A stretch of DNA of 33,189 nucleotides from Acidobacteriota bacterium (lineage in GTDB: Bacteria > Acidobacteriota > Vicinamibacteria > Vicinamibacterales > UBA2999): the NCBI GenBank assembly GCA_021730945.1, contig JAKFYH010000052.1, positions 1 to 33,189 on the forward strand, in the 5' to 3' direction. Below, piece by piece: positions 2,161 to 25,191 of this stretch (position 1 is its first letter; every line of letters starts with the position of its first letter). The translations under genes were made by a program, and so were the position numbers. The notes beneath the pieces were generated by a model, which saw only the letters and a program-made list of their open reading frames with translations, searched no databases and had not been told where the DNA came from.

Positions 2161-2326
2161 ATTGGCGAAGCCAGTAGTACATGTAAATGAAGAAGGAACC
2201 TCTATGTACCTTTCTGTACTAGGTGGGTATGTGCGTGTACGTACTGTCACGTATACCTACCACTCAGCCAGCGCCGTCATGCACGTAAGCCTGTAAGCCG
2301 TCTTCATAACAACTTAGAAGTCTCCA

Positions 2327-2360
2327 AAAGCCCGAAGGGAACCTTCTTCCTTCGGGCTTT
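2327..2360 (+). terminator. Strong hairpin, probable Rho-independent terminator
   Basis: A perfect 12-bp stem AAAGCCCGAAGG / CCTTCGGGCTTT encloses a 10-base loop. The A-run before and T-run within the right arm give the usual bidirectional terminator shape. It lies 45 bases upstream of the small gene at 2406 and would isolate it from transcription of the non-coding block to the left. Confidence 0.75.
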
Positions 2361-2405
2361 CGCCATGTACACGGCAATTTCGCCGCTATGTGTGTGAGGG
2401 ACGTA

Positions 2406-2693
2406 ATGAACCTACGAGAACAGGAATACGAAGGCGTTCGCGAGTCTGTTGCTCTCTTCTGCCGAGTCCACAAGCTGTATGACGGACACATCGGGGACTG
2501 CAAGCACTGTGGGAAGAGGGTCTATTGGGGTAGGAACCGAAATGGACGTTGGGCACCACCGTTTGAGTCGATGGCGCTGGGGTTTGTGTGCCCCGGCCAG
2601 TGGGTCTTACATCAGAGCAGGTGTCCACACTACCGTGGCGCACTCGGGGAGCGTATTGACGCTACGCCGAGGCTGATCAAGAAACCGAAATGA
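2406..2693 (+). CDS. Small Cys/His-rich, probably zinc-binding protein of phage type
   Basis: A 95-residue protein. The ATG at 2406 is preferred over the in-frame ATG at 2388 because a GAGGGA element lies just before it, although the spacing is short. The central part has CKHCGKRVYWGRN, then a proline-phenylalanine-glutamate stretch, and later H-x3-CPHY, so C-x2-C and H/C ligands could bind one zinc ion. Small proteins with this pattern (a CxxC next to a tryptophan and a trailing HxxxCP) are common in phages and integrative elements, but none that I know has a clear function. Hairpins flank it on both sides (2327-2360 and 2711-2749), so it appears to be a self-contained transcription unit. 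Confidence 0.6.
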   Translation: MNLREQEYEGVRESVALFCRVHKLYDGHIGDCKHCGKRVYWGRNRNGRWAPPFESMALGFVCPGQWVLHQSRCPHYRGALGERIDATPRLIKKPK

Positions 2694-2710
2694 GGCCGCA
2701 GGAGCCAAAG

Positions 2711-2749
2711 TCCGATGAAGGGCCCCTTGGCCTATGTCCCTTCATCGGA
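2711..2749 (+). terminator. Hairpin downstream of the small zinc-binding gene
   Basis: A perfect 12-bp stem TCCGATGAAGGG / CCCTTCATCGGA with a 15-base loop begins 17 bases after the stop codon of the preceding gene. It lacks a clear T-run, so it could be a terminator or an RNA-stabilising hairpin. Confidence 0.6.
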
Positions 2750-3019
2750 TTCGCTCTGAGAGCCTCTTGATGGCTAGTTCGCGCACTCTACGACTGCTTG
2801 CCGTAACCGCGCTGTAGCCGTGTGGAGACTGGCGCCAAAATTTTCTCGGCCTTTTCGTGTAGCCCCCACACCCGGGGGGCCAGCAAGGGGTACCCCCAGG
2901 TGTTACGCGTTAGCTCAGCCTCTAGGGACACGAGTGCGTAAGATGAAGCATTAGACCCGCATTACACCCCAAAGGACTGTGCCCCCAACTGTGCCCCCTG
3001 GGCTCGGTTCGGGTTCTCT

Positions 3020-3060
3020 GTTTCGAGCGCCGAAGGCGCGAAACCCTAAGTCTTTTTCTT
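3020..3060 (+). terminator. Hairpin with T-tract, probable terminator at the island end
   Basis: The stem pairs GTTTC (3020-3024) and GCGCC (3027-3031) with GGCGC (3035-3039) and GAAAC (3040-3044) around a GAA loop, with a two-base bulge. A T-rich tract (TCTTTTTCTT) follows at 3051-3060. It lies directly before the truncated tRNA sequence and would stop rightward transcription out of the element. Nothing gene-like is seen between 2750 and 3019; a direct repeat ACTGTGCCCCC occurs near 2980. Confidence 0.6.
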
Positions 3061-3081
3061 GTTCTTCCGACGCAAAGCGTC

Positions 3082-3136
3082 GAGCATCCGGCTGTTAACC
3101 GGAGGGTTGCTGGTTCGAGTCCAGCCCGAGGAGCCA
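3082..3136 (+). tRNA. tRNA-Asn(GTT), 3' part only; probable attachment site (att) of the integrated element
   Basis: The sequence contains the right limb of the D-stem (GAGC), an anticodon stem TCCGG/CCGGA with loop CTGTTAA (anticodon GTT at 3094-3096), a five-base variable loop, a T-arm GCTGG-TTCGAGT-CCAGC, the acceptor strand CCGAGGA, discriminator G and encoded CCA. The expected 5' acceptor strand TCCTCGG and the normal D-arm are absent: the bases before it (GACGCAAAGCGTC at 3069-3081) form an unrelated small hairpin. A complete functional tRNA is therefore not encoded. Tyrosine-recombinase elements duplicate the 3' part of their target tRNA gene, so this is best read as the far attachment site, with the island to its left and native chromosome to its right. 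Confidence 0.75.
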
Positions 3137-3230
3137 GCCTCCGCTCACGCATTCCTTGGTGAGCTACGGCTAGGCCGGGCCCTTCGGGCCGGCCTCTCAG
3201 GATTCCACCAAGTAGCCGACGCGCGGAGGC
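3137..3230. repeat. REP-like dyad element, copy 1
   Basis: The element is bounded by the terminal inverted repeat GCCTCCGC (3137-3144) and GCGGAGGC (3223-3230). Inside are a GGCC-rich hairpin closed by a TTCG loop and a segment near the right end that repeats the left end in reverse orientation. It starts at the very next base after the tRNA CCA. Confidence 0.7.
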
Positions 3231-3315
3231 TGTCTCGCCGAAGCCCTCGCCGAAGCGGCAACGCCGCGAAGGCCTGGGGCGAAGGCGGACCCCCTCGGGC
3301 GGCCTTGCGCCTCGG

Positions 3316-3402
3316 GCCTCCGCTCACGCACTACTTGGTGAGCTTCGGCTGGGTCGGCCTTCGGCCGACCACTAAGACCGCGAACCAGTCTTTCGCGGAG
3401 GC
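3316..3402. repeat. REP-like dyad element, copy 2
   Basis: It has the same terminal repeats as copy 1, GCCTCCGC (3316-3323) and GCGGAGGC (3395-3402), and the same left arm with minor changes (CTCACGCA..CTTGGTGAGCT). Two hairpins are visible: GCTCAC/GTGAGC, and GGTCGGC/GCCGACC around a loop that includes TTCG. Between the two copies (3231-3315) there is further GC-rich dyad sequence, and no gene is visible from 3137 to 3519. Confidence 0.7.
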
Positions 3403-3519
3403 TGCATTTTCCGCGATCGCAATCCCTCTCTCACATCGCCCGAACTGCGTACGATGCCCAGGGCAGTTGAGAATTCTGGCCGAGATCCCGGCGGCTCGAT
3501 TTCTGCGTCCACCCTGCCC

Positions 3520-21770: not shown

Positions 21771-22146
21771 CTACTGGCAGCGGAGCGCGACGACCGGGTC
21801 GACGCGGGCCGCTCTTGGCGCCGGCAAGGAACAAGCCAGCAGGGCTCTTGCGGCTAGCGTCGCAGTGATGACGGTAAACGTCATCGGATCCCTCGCTTCA
21901 ACCTCAACGCTCAGGCGTTGGGTAGGCAACGGGGCGGAGGATCACGGCATTGACCACGCTGAAGATGGCGGTGGTCAGGCTGATGCCCAGGGCGAGGGTC
22001 AAGACGACGCCGGCCGAGAGGCCCAGACTCCTGCGCAGTCCGCGAAGGGCGTAGCGGCCGTCCTGGATCATGGTATCGAGCCAGTGCGGCACCGAGAGTG
22101 CCAGGCCAGTGTCGCTCGTGTCCTCGCTCCTGTCCTGCAAAGTCAT
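21771..22146 (-). pseudogene. ADOP permease pseudogene with the centre deleted
   Basis: On the minus strand, 22146 down to about 21904 encodes 80 residues of a permease N-terminus: the segment IQDGRYALRGLRRSLGLSAG followed by a membrane helix and [16 protein letters not shown], ending PTPER and a stop. Just beyond, in another frame (about 21898 down to the stop at 21771-21773), about 40 residues match an ADOP C-terminus: [12 protein letters not shown], a hydrophobic helix, [13 protein letters not shown]. About 700 internal codons are therefore missing between the two ends, and the join shifts the frame. No functional product is expected. Confidence 0.8.
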
Positions 22147-22270: not shown

Positions 22271-22975
22271 GTGGACTGCCCACGTTGCGCGCTAAGCATG
22301 ACGTCACATACCGTTGCCGGCCAGTTGGGCCGGGCGGTGACGATCGATCTCTGCGAACCCTGCCAGGCGATCTGGTTCGATCCGCGCGAGAACCTGCAGT
22401 TGACGCCCGGCGCCACGCTCATGCTGTTTCGCATCATCGGCGAGCACGTCGCCAGGCCCCAGGCGATCGAGTCGGACACGGCCAAGTGCCCGCACTGCAA
22501 GGCACGCCTGCGACGCACGCAGGACATGCAGCGGGCGACCCGTTTCGAGTACTTCCGCTGCCCGCACGATCACGGCCGCCTGACGACCTTCTTCGACTTC
22601 CTGAAAGAGAAGGACTTTGTGCGGCCGCTCACGCCTGCGCAAGTTGCCGAGTTACGCCGCAACGTTCAGGTCGTCAACTGCTCGAACTGCGGCGGGTCGA
22701 TCGACCTGGCCCGGACGAGCGACTGCGAGCACTGCGGGTCGCCGCTGTCGATGCTCGACATGCAACAGGCCGAGACCCTGATTGCCCAGTTGCGGCAGGC
22801 GGACCGCACGGACAAGGTCGTTGATCCCACGCTGCCGCTGGCCCTGGCCCGCGCCCGCCGCGAAGCCGACGAGGCCTTCAAGGGCCTGCGACAGGACGTC
22901 GTGTGGCAGGACGGCCAGTCGTTCGGCCTGGTCGGCGCCGGCCTGAGCGCACTGGCCCGGTTCCTGAGAGAGTGA
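22271..22975 (+). CDS. Multi-zinc-ribbon protein (zf-TFIIB type), first gene of the SPFH cassette
   Basis: A 234-residue soluble protein. The GTG at 22271 is chosen because it keeps the first cysteine pair: MDCPRC gives C3 and C6, paired with C28 and C31 (CEPCQAIWFDP), the pattern of the zf-TFIIB zinc domain. A second set lies at C73/C76 (CPHCKA) with C97 and the histidines of CPHDH. A third is C137/C140 (CSNCGG) with C152/C155 (CEHCGS). The C-terminus is helical and ends with ALARFLRE. No membrane segment is seen. It is followed after 71 bases by the SPFH gene on the same strand, so it probably belongs to the same functional set. Its role, perhaps binding RNA, DNA or a partner protein, is unknown. 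Confidence 0.85.
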   Translation: MDCPRCALSMTSHTVAGQLGRAVTIDLCEPCQAIWFDPRENLQLTPGATLMLFRIIGEHVARPQAIESDTAKCPHCKARLRRTQDMQRATRFEYFRCPHDHGRLTTFFDFLKEKDFVRPLTPAQVAELRRNVQVVNCSNCGGSIDLARTSDCEHCGSPLSMLDMQQAETLIAQLRQADRTDKVVDPTLPLALARARREADEAFKGLRQDVVWQDGQSFGLVGAGLSALARFLRE

Positions 22976-23046
22976 ACCTGAGGGCTTGAAACTTGGGGCT
23001 TGAGGACCAGAAGTAGAGTCTCCCGATCTCCTGTTAATATCGCGGC

Positions 23047-24090
23047 ATGGGGATTACCGACTTCTTCAAGGGCGAATTCATTGACGTCATCGAGTGGACC
23101 GATGACTCCCGCGACACCCTCTCGTTCCGGTTTCCGGACGATGACAAGGCGATCAAGAACGGCGCGCAGTTAATCGTGCGCGAGTCGCAGGTGGCGCAGT
23201 TTGTCTACCTCGGCGAGTTCGGCGACACCTTCCTGCCAGGCAAGCACACGCTGACCACCGACAACATCCCGATTCTCACGCGGCTGGCGTCGTGGAAGTA
23301 CGGCTTCAACTCGCCCTTCAAGGCCGACGTCTACTACGTGATCACGCGGCTCTTCACCGGCAACAAATGGGGCACCTCCAACCCGGTGATGCTGCGCGAT
23401 GCCGACTTCGGCGTGGCCCGCGTGCGGGCGTTTGGCACCTACGACTTCAAGATCGTCGAGCCCAAGACTTTCCTGCGCGAAGTCGCCGGCTCCGACCACA
23501 ACTTCCGCCTCGACGAGTTCGCCGACACCATGCGATCGCGCATTGTCAGCCTGTTCACCGACGCAATCGCCTCAGCGAAGATTCCGGTGTTGGACGTGGC
23601 GTCGCGCTACACCGAACTGGGCGATGCGCTGCTGCCCATGATCAACCCGGCCGTCACCGCCAAGTACGGCCTCGCCATCACCAGCTTCATCGTCGAGAAC
23701 GTGTCGGTGCCGCCGGAAGTGGAGGCCGCGCTCGACAAGCGCGCCAGCATGACCGCGATCGGCAACCTCAACGACTACGTGAAATACCAGATGGGCCAGG
23801 GCATGGCGGCGGGCGGCGGCAGCGGCGGCGCCGCCGGTACCGCCGCGGAACTCGCCGTCGGCTTCGGCATCGCGCAGCAGATGATGCAACAGGGCTTCGC
23901 CGGTGGCGCCGCGGCGCCGACGGTGGCGGCGGTGCCGGACCTGCTCGGACCGGCCGATGCCGCCAAGGTGCTCGGCGTCAGCGAGGCCGACGTCATGGCC
24001 GTCCTTGAATCGGGCGAGCTCAAGGGCAAGAAGATCGGCGCGTCGTGGCGCATCACGCGCGCGGCCCTCAACAGCTACCTCGCGGAGTAG
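23047..24090 (+). CDS. SPFH-domain (YdjI/virion-core-like) protein with C-terminal excisionase-type HTH
   Basis: A 347-residue protein. Residues 1-245 match the SPFH family once annotated as virion core protein and represented by Bacillus subtilis YdjI: MGITDFFKGEFIDVIEW at the start, then QLIVRESQVAQFVYLGEF, and the FRLDEFADTMRSRIVSLF and Y-x-ELG regions. A glycine-alanine-rich linker (about 253-295) leads to a helix-turn-helix domain of the excisionase/MerR-like DNA-binding type (299-346: LLGPADAAKVLGVSEADV, later GKKIGASWRITRAALNSYL). YdjI homologues bind the membrane with partner proteins and recruit PspA during membrane stress. The HTH at this place may act in DNA binding or as a protein contact. 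The following gene starts 3 bases after the stop in the same frame. Confidence 0.92.
   Translation: MGITDFFKGEFIDVIEWTDDSRDTLSFRFPDDDKAIKNGAQLIVRESQVAQFVYLGEFGDTFLPGKHTLTTDNIPILTRLASWKYGFNSPFKADVYYVITRLFTGNKWGTSNPVMLRDADFGVARVRAFGTYDFKIVEPKTFLREVAGSDHNFRLDEFADTMRSRIVSLFTDAIASAKIPVLDVASRYTELGDALLPMINPAVTAKYGLAITSFIVENVSVPPEVEAALDKRASMTAIGNLNDYVKYQMGQGMAAGGGSGGAAGTAAELAVGFGIAQQMMQQGFAGGAAAPTVAAVPDLLGPADAAKVLGVSEADVMAVLESGELKGKKIGASWRITRAALNSYLAE
24084..24087 (+). promoter_or_regulatory. Ribosome-binding site GGAG that points to a CTG start
   Basis: GGAG lies inside the last codons of the SPFH gene with six bases to the CTG at 24094. No ATG, GTG or TTG occurs in frame between the SPFH stop and the first cysteine pair of the next protein, so this spacing is the main evidence for a CTG start. 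Confidence 0.55.
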
Positions 24091-24093
24091 CGG

Positions 24094-25191
24094 CTGGCTC
24101 CCGACGTCCCGGCGCTCGACAAGCATGCCTGCCCGGCGTGCGGCGCGCAGGCGGAGTGGAACCCGTCGACGCAGACGCTCGTGTGCCCGTTCTGCGGCAC
24201 TGAATCGCCATATGTGATCGATCGCGACTTGGGCCAGGTCGCCGAACGGGACCTGGCGGCCGCCCTGCGCGAGGCGCCGGCCGCCGAGGCCGAGTGGCAA
24301 GCAGCACGGCGCAGCGTGCAGTGCCAGAGCTGCCGCGCGGTCATGGTCTACGAAGCCGGGCGGATCGGGCAGAACTGCGAGTTCTGCGGCTCGCCGGCGC
24401 TCTTGGCCTACGACCAGGTCCAGTCGCCGATTCGCCCAGAGGGGGTGCTGCCGTTCCGGATCGATCGCAACCGCGTGCGCGACGACATCCGCCGCTGGTG
24501 GCGCAGCAAGTGGTTCGCGCCGGGCCGGCTGGCCCGGACCGCCCTGGTCGACACCGTGCGCAGCCTGTACATTCCGTACTGGACGTTCGACGCGCAGGCC
24601 CATTGCCCCTGGGAGGCCGAGGCCGGCCACTACTACTACGTCAACGTCGAGGGCCGCGACAGCAAGGGCCGGCGCGTGATGCGCCAGGAACGCCGGACCC
24701 GCTGGGAGCCGGCCTCGGGCGTCGTCGATCACGTCTTCGACGATGAGCCGGTGCCGGGAACGCAGGGTCTGCCGATCGCGCTGTTACGGCAGGTCGAGCC
24801 CTTCCCAACCTCCGAGCTGGTGCCGTACGACACCGCCTTTCTCTCCGGCCACATCGTCGAGCACTACCAGGTTGTGCTGACCGACGCCTCCGTCCAGTCA
24901 CAACAGCAGATGCACCAGGCGCTCGAGCAGTTATGTGCGGGCCAGGTGCCGGGGGACACGTACCGCAACCTGGTGATCCATCCCACCTGGTCGGGCCAGA
25001 CCTTCAAGCACATCCTGGTGCCGATCTGGCTGCTGACCTATGTGTTTCGCGCCAAGCCGTACCAAGTGCTGGTCAACGGATCCACCGGGCGCATGGCCGG
25101 CAAGTATCCACTGAGCGTGTGGAAGATCCTGTTTGCCCTCATGGCGATTGCCACGCTGGTGCTGTTGGGCCTGCTGGCCAGCCAGAGTTGA
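24094..25191 (+). CDS. Zinc-ribbon membrane protein (YdjG-like), apparent CTG start
   Basis: A 365-residue protein. With the CTG start, residues 13-34 hold a zinc ribbon (CPAC..CPFC), and a second follows near 75-105 (CQSC..CEFCGS). The middle part has the family's IRPEGVLPFRI, IRRWWRSKWFAPG and SLYIPYWTFDAQ stretches, and the C-terminus ends in one membrane helix (about 343-362). This is the layout of TFIIB-type zinc-ribbon proteins such as Bacillus YdjG, partner of the SPFH protein YdjI. A start at GTG 24181 would cut the first zinc ribbon in half, so it is rejected. The gene is in the same frame as the SPFH gene, separated by one TAG; readthrough giving a fused protein is possible but less likely. 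Confidence 0.86.
   Translation: MAPDVPALDKHACPACGAQAEWNPSTQTLVCPFCGTESPYVIDRDLGQVAERDLAAALREAPAAEAEWQAARRSVQCQSCRAVMVYEAGRIGQNCEFCGSPALLAYDQVQSPIRPEGVLPFRIDRNRVRDDIRRWWRSKWFAPGRLARTALVDTVRSLYIPYWTFDAQAHCPWEAEAGHYYYVNVEGRDSKGRRVMRQERRTRWEPASGVVDHVFDDEPVPGTQGLPIALLRQVEPFPTSELVPYDTAFLSGHIVEHYQVVLTDASVQSQQQMHQALEQLCAGQVPGDTYRNLVIHPTWSGQTFKHILVPIWLLTYVFRAKPYQVLVNGSTGRMAGKYPLSVWKILFALMAIATLVLLGLLASQS

Follow-up and report, generated by a model that had tools for sequence, protein, structure and literature searches.

In Bacillus, pspA shares an operon with the genes for a band-7/zinc-ribbon protein, YdjG, and the TPM-type protein YdjH, according to PMC11237479. A study in B. subtilis reports that YdjI is likely soluble, that it needs YdjG and YdjH to form membrane foci, and that YdjI, YdjG, and YdjH are all needed to localize PspA, with two-hybrid contacts between YdjI and PspA, YdjI and YdjH, YdjH and PspA, and YdjG and YdjH (PMC8581546). 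YdjI is mentioned in passing in two further papers (PMC10936438, PMC11153139), and another describes band-7 genes adjoining pspA in Acidobacteriota (11 of 19 pspA neighborhoods for band 7_Flot; PMC9239133). Here, we describe a locus with related parts in an Acidobacteriota bacterium (Vicinamibacterales, UBA2999; assembly GCA_021730945.1). The window, by which we mean the whole stretch of DNA that was analyzed, comprises 33,189 nucleotides of contig JAKFYH010000052.1 and contains three plus-strand genes that we call A (22271..22975), B (23047..24090), and C (24094..25191). An initial annotation, made from the sequence alone, had placed three same-strand genes at these positions, which we confirmed, and had read them as a self-contained membrane system of the ydjG-ydjI type. 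This interpretation was partly supported.

We class the locus as a relative of the ydj cassette that is independent of PspA, and not as a member, because PspA is absent and no YdjH-like TPM gene is adjacent. The observations behind the comparison are the domain content of the proteins, the linkage and co-occurrence of B and C, the absence of PspA, and an acidic helix in the tail of B. As in the B. subtilis pspA-ydjG-ydjH-ydjI set, an SPFH protein of family PF13421 is encoded together with a partner that combines a membrane segment with two zinc ribbons, a likeness judged from architecture and published descriptions. In contrast to what is described for B. subtilis, there is no PspA in the genome and no adjacent TPM gene, a helix-turn-helix (HTH) replaces the zinc-ribbon tail of the SPFH protein, and an extra zf-TFIIB protein is present. 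Of the proposed ydj-type system, the YdjI-type part holds up and the YdjG-type part is matched in its two ribbons and tail helix, with a middle domain of weaker resemblance, but the system as a whole departs from it in the TPM gene, the tail, and PspA.

Protein B (347 residues) is a core member that consists of a cytoplasmic SPFH/Band_7_1 domain and a C-terminal winged HTH. The SPFH domain (23125..23754) matches PF13421 with 274.5 bits, as expected for the YdjI-type protein that had been proposed, and Foldseek matches to this part of the B model include stomatin, HflC, flotillin, and prohibitin. Flotillins and HflK/C have an N-terminal membrane helix or hairpin. In contrast, a hydropathy scan of B found no segment of transmembrane grade at the N terminus or elsewhere (best 19-residue value, 1.43 at residue 166, versus 2.62 for the tail of C). 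The initial descriptions of A as a soluble multi-ribbon protein, B as an SPFH protein, and C as a ribbon protein with a C-terminal helix were accurate, but the HTH tail of B had gone unreported.

Proteins with this architecture form a discrete and well-conserved class. In a 297-genome sample of the phylum, 132 genomes had a PF13421 match; 21 of these scored at least 579 bits and aligned to the HTH end, while the other 111 scored no more than 366 bits, and it is this gap that sets the class apart. The window's own genome (completeness 100) encodes a single PF13421 protein. Among 60 related genomes, with that one included, 26 had a match above 260 bits, and all 24 complete B proteins in them, the window's among them, end in the HTH. 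A scan of named species genomes yielded 476 relatives, of which we used the best 80 (here, the named loci), meaning the closest and not a random draw. The match reached the HTH end in 79 and the remaining one was cut by a contig end, so that HTH presence across this set is partly a selection effect. Going by record titles, the 80 belong mainly to Acidobacteriota, Verrucomicrobiota, and Betaproteobacteria, although titles of metagenome-assembled genomes are not always reliable (a few say Bordetella, Bifidobacterium, Cyanobacteria, or Acidimicrobiia); isolates are represented by Haloferula strains and a Comamonas plasmid. A quick tree of 80 SPFH parts, from which L070 was left out because B is cut there, intermixed the phyla and placed Betaproteobacteria in two positions, with many forks open; this mixing suggests that SPFH-HTH genes may have moved between phyla by transfer. 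Protein B also gave matches in four phage records, unannotated and with 24 to 33% identity.

The SPFH-HTH gene is tied to gene C. Mean column identity among the closest relatives found was 71% for B (69 rows) and 63% for C (56 rows), values high enough that the observation is not a chance one. Of 76 evaluable rows, 62 had gene C near B, downstream and in the same orientation, and 4 further rows had too little flank to be evaluated; one locus (L076) was counted as C-bearing by hand from tblastn, since open reading frame (ORF) clustering had picked an overlapping frame. The absences map to a single change on the B tree, located in a Prosthecobacter-like clade. When a C profile was run against 16 genomes in which no C had been found next to B (an adjacent C was scored absent in 14, and 2 had less than 2.5 kb of flank), every one encoded one full-length C (E = 2.1e-156 or lower), with an additional fragment in one genome. 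Therefore, B and C persist together even when they are not side by side. Two more loci without a visible C on short flanks (L116 and L124) lay outside this search, and the profile likewise recovered one full-length C in each of four genomes with the adjacent pair. In the 25 other loci above 260 bits, with flanks of about 1.5 kb on each side of the SPFH match, C was found in 22 and A in 9; a contig end cuts two of the three without C, the exception being L019. Seven further SPFH-HTH loci from other classes (L155 to L161) included four with C.

Adjacent B-C pairs were also found on plasmids of Comamonas (HTH tail), of Vibrio, Paracoccus, and Tsukamurella (GYF_2 tails), and of Enterococcus (zinc-ribbon tail, followed by a TPM gene). 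The pair of Comamonas odontotermitis (WP_224153175.1/WP_224153207.1) is identical to B-C in architecture and order; it differs in having no gene A among its annotated neighbors. NCBI names these products "SPFH and helix-turn-helix domain-containing protein" and "TFIIB-type zinc ribbon-containing protein," so the architecture itself is already known to annotation. A literature search found no paper on an SPFH-HTH/zinc-ribbon system, with most subscription papers outside its reach. In the Enterococcus gallinarum plasmid (NZ_CP116511.1), an SPFH gene stands beside a homolog of C (tblastn, E = 8e-18 over 96% of C at 23.7% identity). That cassette differs in its weak SPFH match (49.9 bits), its zinc-ribbon tail (DZR, 23.3 bits, below the cutoff), and the TPM gene next to it. 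Because the homolog is the middle gene of an SPFH/zinc-ribbon/TPM cassette, this match, together with the architecture, supports placing C in the YdjG type. By eye, a ribbon-tailed SPFH gene with C also occurs at L163, and two Acidobacteriota loci (L149 and L150) carry SPFH proteins with SHOCT-like tails and no adjacent C.

Protein C, the other core member, has two zinc ribbons, a central beta-rich domain, and a single C-terminal membrane helix. Its open frame runs from 24091 to 25191 and holds no ATG, GTG, or TTG ahead of the first ribbon. We place the likely start at the CTG at 24094, which follows a GGAG (24084..24087), read as its probable ribosome-binding site, that overlaps the end of B. 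This arrangement is repeated in three own-genus relatives, and CTG stands at the matching place in four of five readable own-genus loci (window included), with GTG in the fifth. A gene caller limited to ATG, GTG, and TTG would begin at 24181, leaving ribbon 1 without its first half. The stop codon of B in the window (TAG) shares its reading frame with C, and we considered read-through into a fusion protein; we rejected it in favor of the CTG start because B ends with TAA in own-genus L040, C is in another frame in L034, and several other relatives have long gaps. The ribbon cysteines (C14/C17/C32/C35 and C78/C81/C96/C99, numbered from 24091) are invariant in 56 rows, and all 57 full-length relatives keep four CxxC motifs and the tail helix. 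The C model (mean predicted local distance difference test [pLDDT], 80.2; predicted template modeling score, 0.72) has ribbons of lower confidence; it also contains long beta hairpins, a helix, additional strands, and, at residues 343 to 365 in the same numbering, the membrane helix. VIA-align gave weak matches over about 60 residues to 4exr (Z = 5.0) and B. subtilis YpmB (2gu3; Z = 4.9), in line with the YpeB-related domain that PMC11237479 ascribes to YdjG. Weak ribbon matches of the C profile were to RNA polymerase subunit P (E = 0.006) and TFIIB (E = 0.06). Foldseek matches of C to pore-forming toxins were rejected as an effect of the long hairpins (E = 0.005 at best, template modeling scores of 0.11 to 0.15, and root mean square deviation near 20 Å). 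In one relative (G001, locus L041), gene C is disrupted behind its first ribbon by a deletion or frameshift, through either assembly error or decay. Locus L136 holds a second C-like gene, seemingly without ribbons, and L038 has an extra same-strand ORF after C (2276 to 3403 downstream of the B start; matches in 21 other loci) that is probably a second C-type protein.

No pspA gene had been noted nearby, and our check for a homolog (PF04012) found none in the whole genome of completeness 100, with 9 of 14 control genomes matching. Therefore, recruitment of PspA cannot be the function here. The nine own-genus genomes gave no match either, and among 37 own-family genomes there was one, below threshold. 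PspA was found in 7 of the 60 related genomes, 6 of them over the cutoff. In the phylum sample, PspA occurred in 4 of 21 SPFH-HTH genomes (two at about 34 bits), in 42 of 111 genomes with other PF13421 proteins, and in 41 of 165 with neither. With kinship ignored, SPFH-HTH genomes were not enriched in PspA (4/21 versus 83/276; Fisher's exact test, P = 0.33), while the other PF13421 proteins were modestly so (42/111 versus 45/186; P = 0.017). SPFH-HTH genomes reached through 35 of the 80 named loci, at least one of them also in the phylum sample, lacked PspA in 28 cases and had it in 7; completeness was not given for these, which weakens single absences. The two TPM matches (PF04536) in the window's genome lie on other contigs (C27 and C30).

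The tail of B (23941..24087; residues 299 to 347) matches HTH_17 with 38.5 bits against a cutoff of 27. In an AlphaFold2 model, it is a full winged HTH of two helices, a wing, and a third helix (pLDDT, 86 to 90) and shares the fold of BldC/MerR-type proteins: in a Foldseek search, BldC (6ama) superposed at 1.7 Å over 49 columns (E = 0.037). Searching the PDB by sequence with the HTH gave chance-level matches only. Unlike BldC, the tail is fused to an SPFH domain, has an acidic recognition helix, and does not keep the residues with which BldC contacts DNA. The helix (residues 311 to 322) carries a net charge of −2 to −4 in 69 of 69 aligned rows, with E313 in 68 rows (Glu or Asp in all 69), D315 invariant, and Glu or Asp at residue 321 in 62. 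PMC5859096 assigns base contacts in BldC to Lys26 and Arg30 and phosphate contacts to Thr27, Thr29, and Lys33; in a register set by the conserved Gly, Lys26, Arg30, Thr27, Thr29, and Lys33 correspond to A314, A318, D315, M317, and E321 of B. Ordinary HTH_17 helices from the window's genome and 20 relatives ranged from 0 to +3 in 17 distinct helices (34 domains, minus 2 without an anchor and duplicates), four of which are visibly out of register. The SPFH-HTH values were read from the 69-row alignment and the controls were anchored by a regular expression that misplaced some rows; the contrast in charge is strong but not exact. At the same position, related SPFH proteins carry GYF_2, zinc-ribbon, or SHOCT-like tails. 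From these patterns, we infer that the tail is an exchangeable protein-docking module and not a gene regulator; DNA contact through the wing alone could still occur. For an HTH that binds protein in a membrane system there is a precedent, with no homology claimed, in the cytoplasmic HTH of RodZ, which binds MreB according to PMC3599482.

The explanation that we favor, with moderate confidence, is that B and C form a PspA-independent complex that scaffolds the membrane, with C as its anchor and the HTH tail as a docking module. Protein C would be anchored in the inner membrane through its final 20 or so residues, with the two ribbons and the beta-rich domain facing the cytoplasm. Protein B itself lacks a membrane segment and would assemble as an SPFH oligomer that is brought to the membrane by C. 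On its flexible Gly/Ala/Pro linker, the HTH, having lost major-groove reading of the BldC/MerR type, may dock a protein, possibly C, A, or a client, and A may act as a soluble zinc-ribbon adaptor in some lineages. By analogy with YdjI, the complex would probably serve in membrane organization or in handling envelope stress. Several observations weigh against this proposal. In B. subtilis, it is YdjH and not YdjG that contacts YdjI in the two-hybrid assay (PMC8581546), which makes C as sole anchor an extrapolation. The AlphaFold2 model of B alone has an overall pLDDT of 67.3, with a modest SPFH part. The wing of the HTH stays basic (K/R328 and R335 in 69 of 69 rows; net charge of +3.0 over residues 323 to 346), so that it might touch DNA. 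Judged on local flanks, some SPFH-HTH loci have no C in reach, namely, L019/L046, L158 (none within 2.6 kb), and L161 (A but no C); L159 is cut by a contig end. Finally, only 3 of 13 acidobacterial SPFH loci with other tails (GYF-like, ribbon, or SHOCT-like, by eye) have an adjacent C, with the SHOCT-like and most ribbon-tailed relatives examined lacking one.

It is conceivable that the locus instead encodes a membrane-held transcription regulator, in which B binds DNA through the HTH, C holds B or releases it upon stress, and the SPFH scaffold reports the state of the membrane. The above-cutoff HTH_17 match, the winged fold that superposes on a DNA-binding protein, and the conserved basic wing would all fit. 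Yet every row has an acidic recognition helix with an invariant Asp where BldC contacts phosphate, ordinary HTH_17 helices are neutral to basic, and relatives that keep an adjacent C replace the HTH with GYF_2 (three plasmid loci) or ribbons; we regard a regulator as unlikely. A cage of the HflKC kind that encloses a membrane enzyme such as a protease, with the zinc-ribbon proteins C and A as substrate adaptors, seems less probable still. Zinc ribbons often bind proteins, and HflC and prohibitin are among the structural matches of B, but no enzyme, protease or otherwise, is consistently encoded close by and B lacks a transmembrane-grade N-terminal segment. The least probable account, to which we give very little credence, is a classical Psp-type system in which the SPFH protein and C recruit a PspA encoded elsewhere. 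The YdjI- and YdjG-type parts, the localization of PspA by YdjI, YdjG, and YdjH in B. subtilis (PMC8581546), and the modest PspA enrichment with other PF13421 proteins speak for it. For the window's genome, the absence of PF04012 already contradicts it, unless an ESCRT-III protein too divergent for this model is present, and the own-genus genomes, most of the named-locus genomes, and the lack of enrichment with SPFH-HTH are against it as well.

Gene A, the third gene of the locus, encodes a soluble 234-residue protein from a GTG start. It has three zinc ribbons (C3/C6/C28/C31, C73/C76/C97/H101, and C137/C140/C152/C155), of which only the first, a zf-TFIIB ribbon, is of Pfam grade (Zn_ribbon_TFIIB, 25.5 bits; cutoff, 22), and it has no hydrophobic segment. 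An alignment of 13 rows shows the ribbon Cys and His residues in 12 or all 13 of them. Among the named loci, A was near B-C in 12 of 80, always adjoining B or C (upstream in the same orientation in 9 and downstream on the opposite strand in 3). In the phylum sample, 11 of the 14 genomes with A were SPFH-HTH genomes (Fisher's exact test with kinship ignored, P = 3.5e-12), and by coordinates A was close to B in 6 of these 11 and unlinked in 5. Same-strand upstream placement was seen in G000, G002, and G008. In the other three, A is convergent and lies directly behind B (G264), behind C (G045), or about 1.2 kb downstream of B (G301). Gene A is thus a linked, lineage-limited accessory and not a core part. 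The self-contained trio of the initial annotation is accordingly reduced to a pair: a check of conservation across phyla found B-C kept and A restricted to certain lineages, and no neighbor beyond C and A is consistent. In G008 (locus L034), A is split over two frames, through either assembly error or decay. A different zf-TFIIB protein diverges from B in one Verrucomicrobiota locus and in three Acidobacteriota loci that share a tree clade and include two titled gp6; we rejected its union with A in one family, with only one ribbon (30 columns) in common.

Beyond C and A, ORF clustering of the 80 named loci revealed no consistent close neighbor. B was found in 80 and C in 60 by clustering, and every other family was in 12 or fewer, including an ABC-F-like ATPase in 12, scattered in position and as far as 6.7 kb away. 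Just upstream of gene A in the window, an 80-residue open frame on the minus strand (21904-22146) resembles, by eye, the N terminus of an ADOP/MacB-type permease and is apparently a remnant. Three betaproteobacterial loci (L121, L125, and L136) have a small protein between B and C whose start looks by eye like a signal peptide. On the Vibrio coralliilyticus plasmid (L144, 4977-7130), the SPFH-GYF_2 and C-type pair lies across from genes with TIR and TRAFs-binding domains, a possible link to signaling or defense.

For the wider family, YdjI has been studied in a single case, where it is read as a recruiter of PspA, and the persistence of B and C without PspA, also in genomes where they were not found as neighbors, suggests that an SPFH protein with a ribbon anchor has a function of its own. 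Whether the following history is correct we judge to be evenly balanced: a DNA-reading HTH would have become acidified into a protein-docking tail, and the SPFH protein with its nearly inseparable ribbon anchor would make up a PspA-independent system in at least three phyla, spread partly by gene transfer, in which tails (HTH, GYF_2, zinc ribbon, or SHOCT-like) are swapped to choose the client. Naming SPFH-HTH proteins as DNA-binding in annotation may mislead, and the acidic HTH offers point mutations with which the binding target of the tail could be probed.

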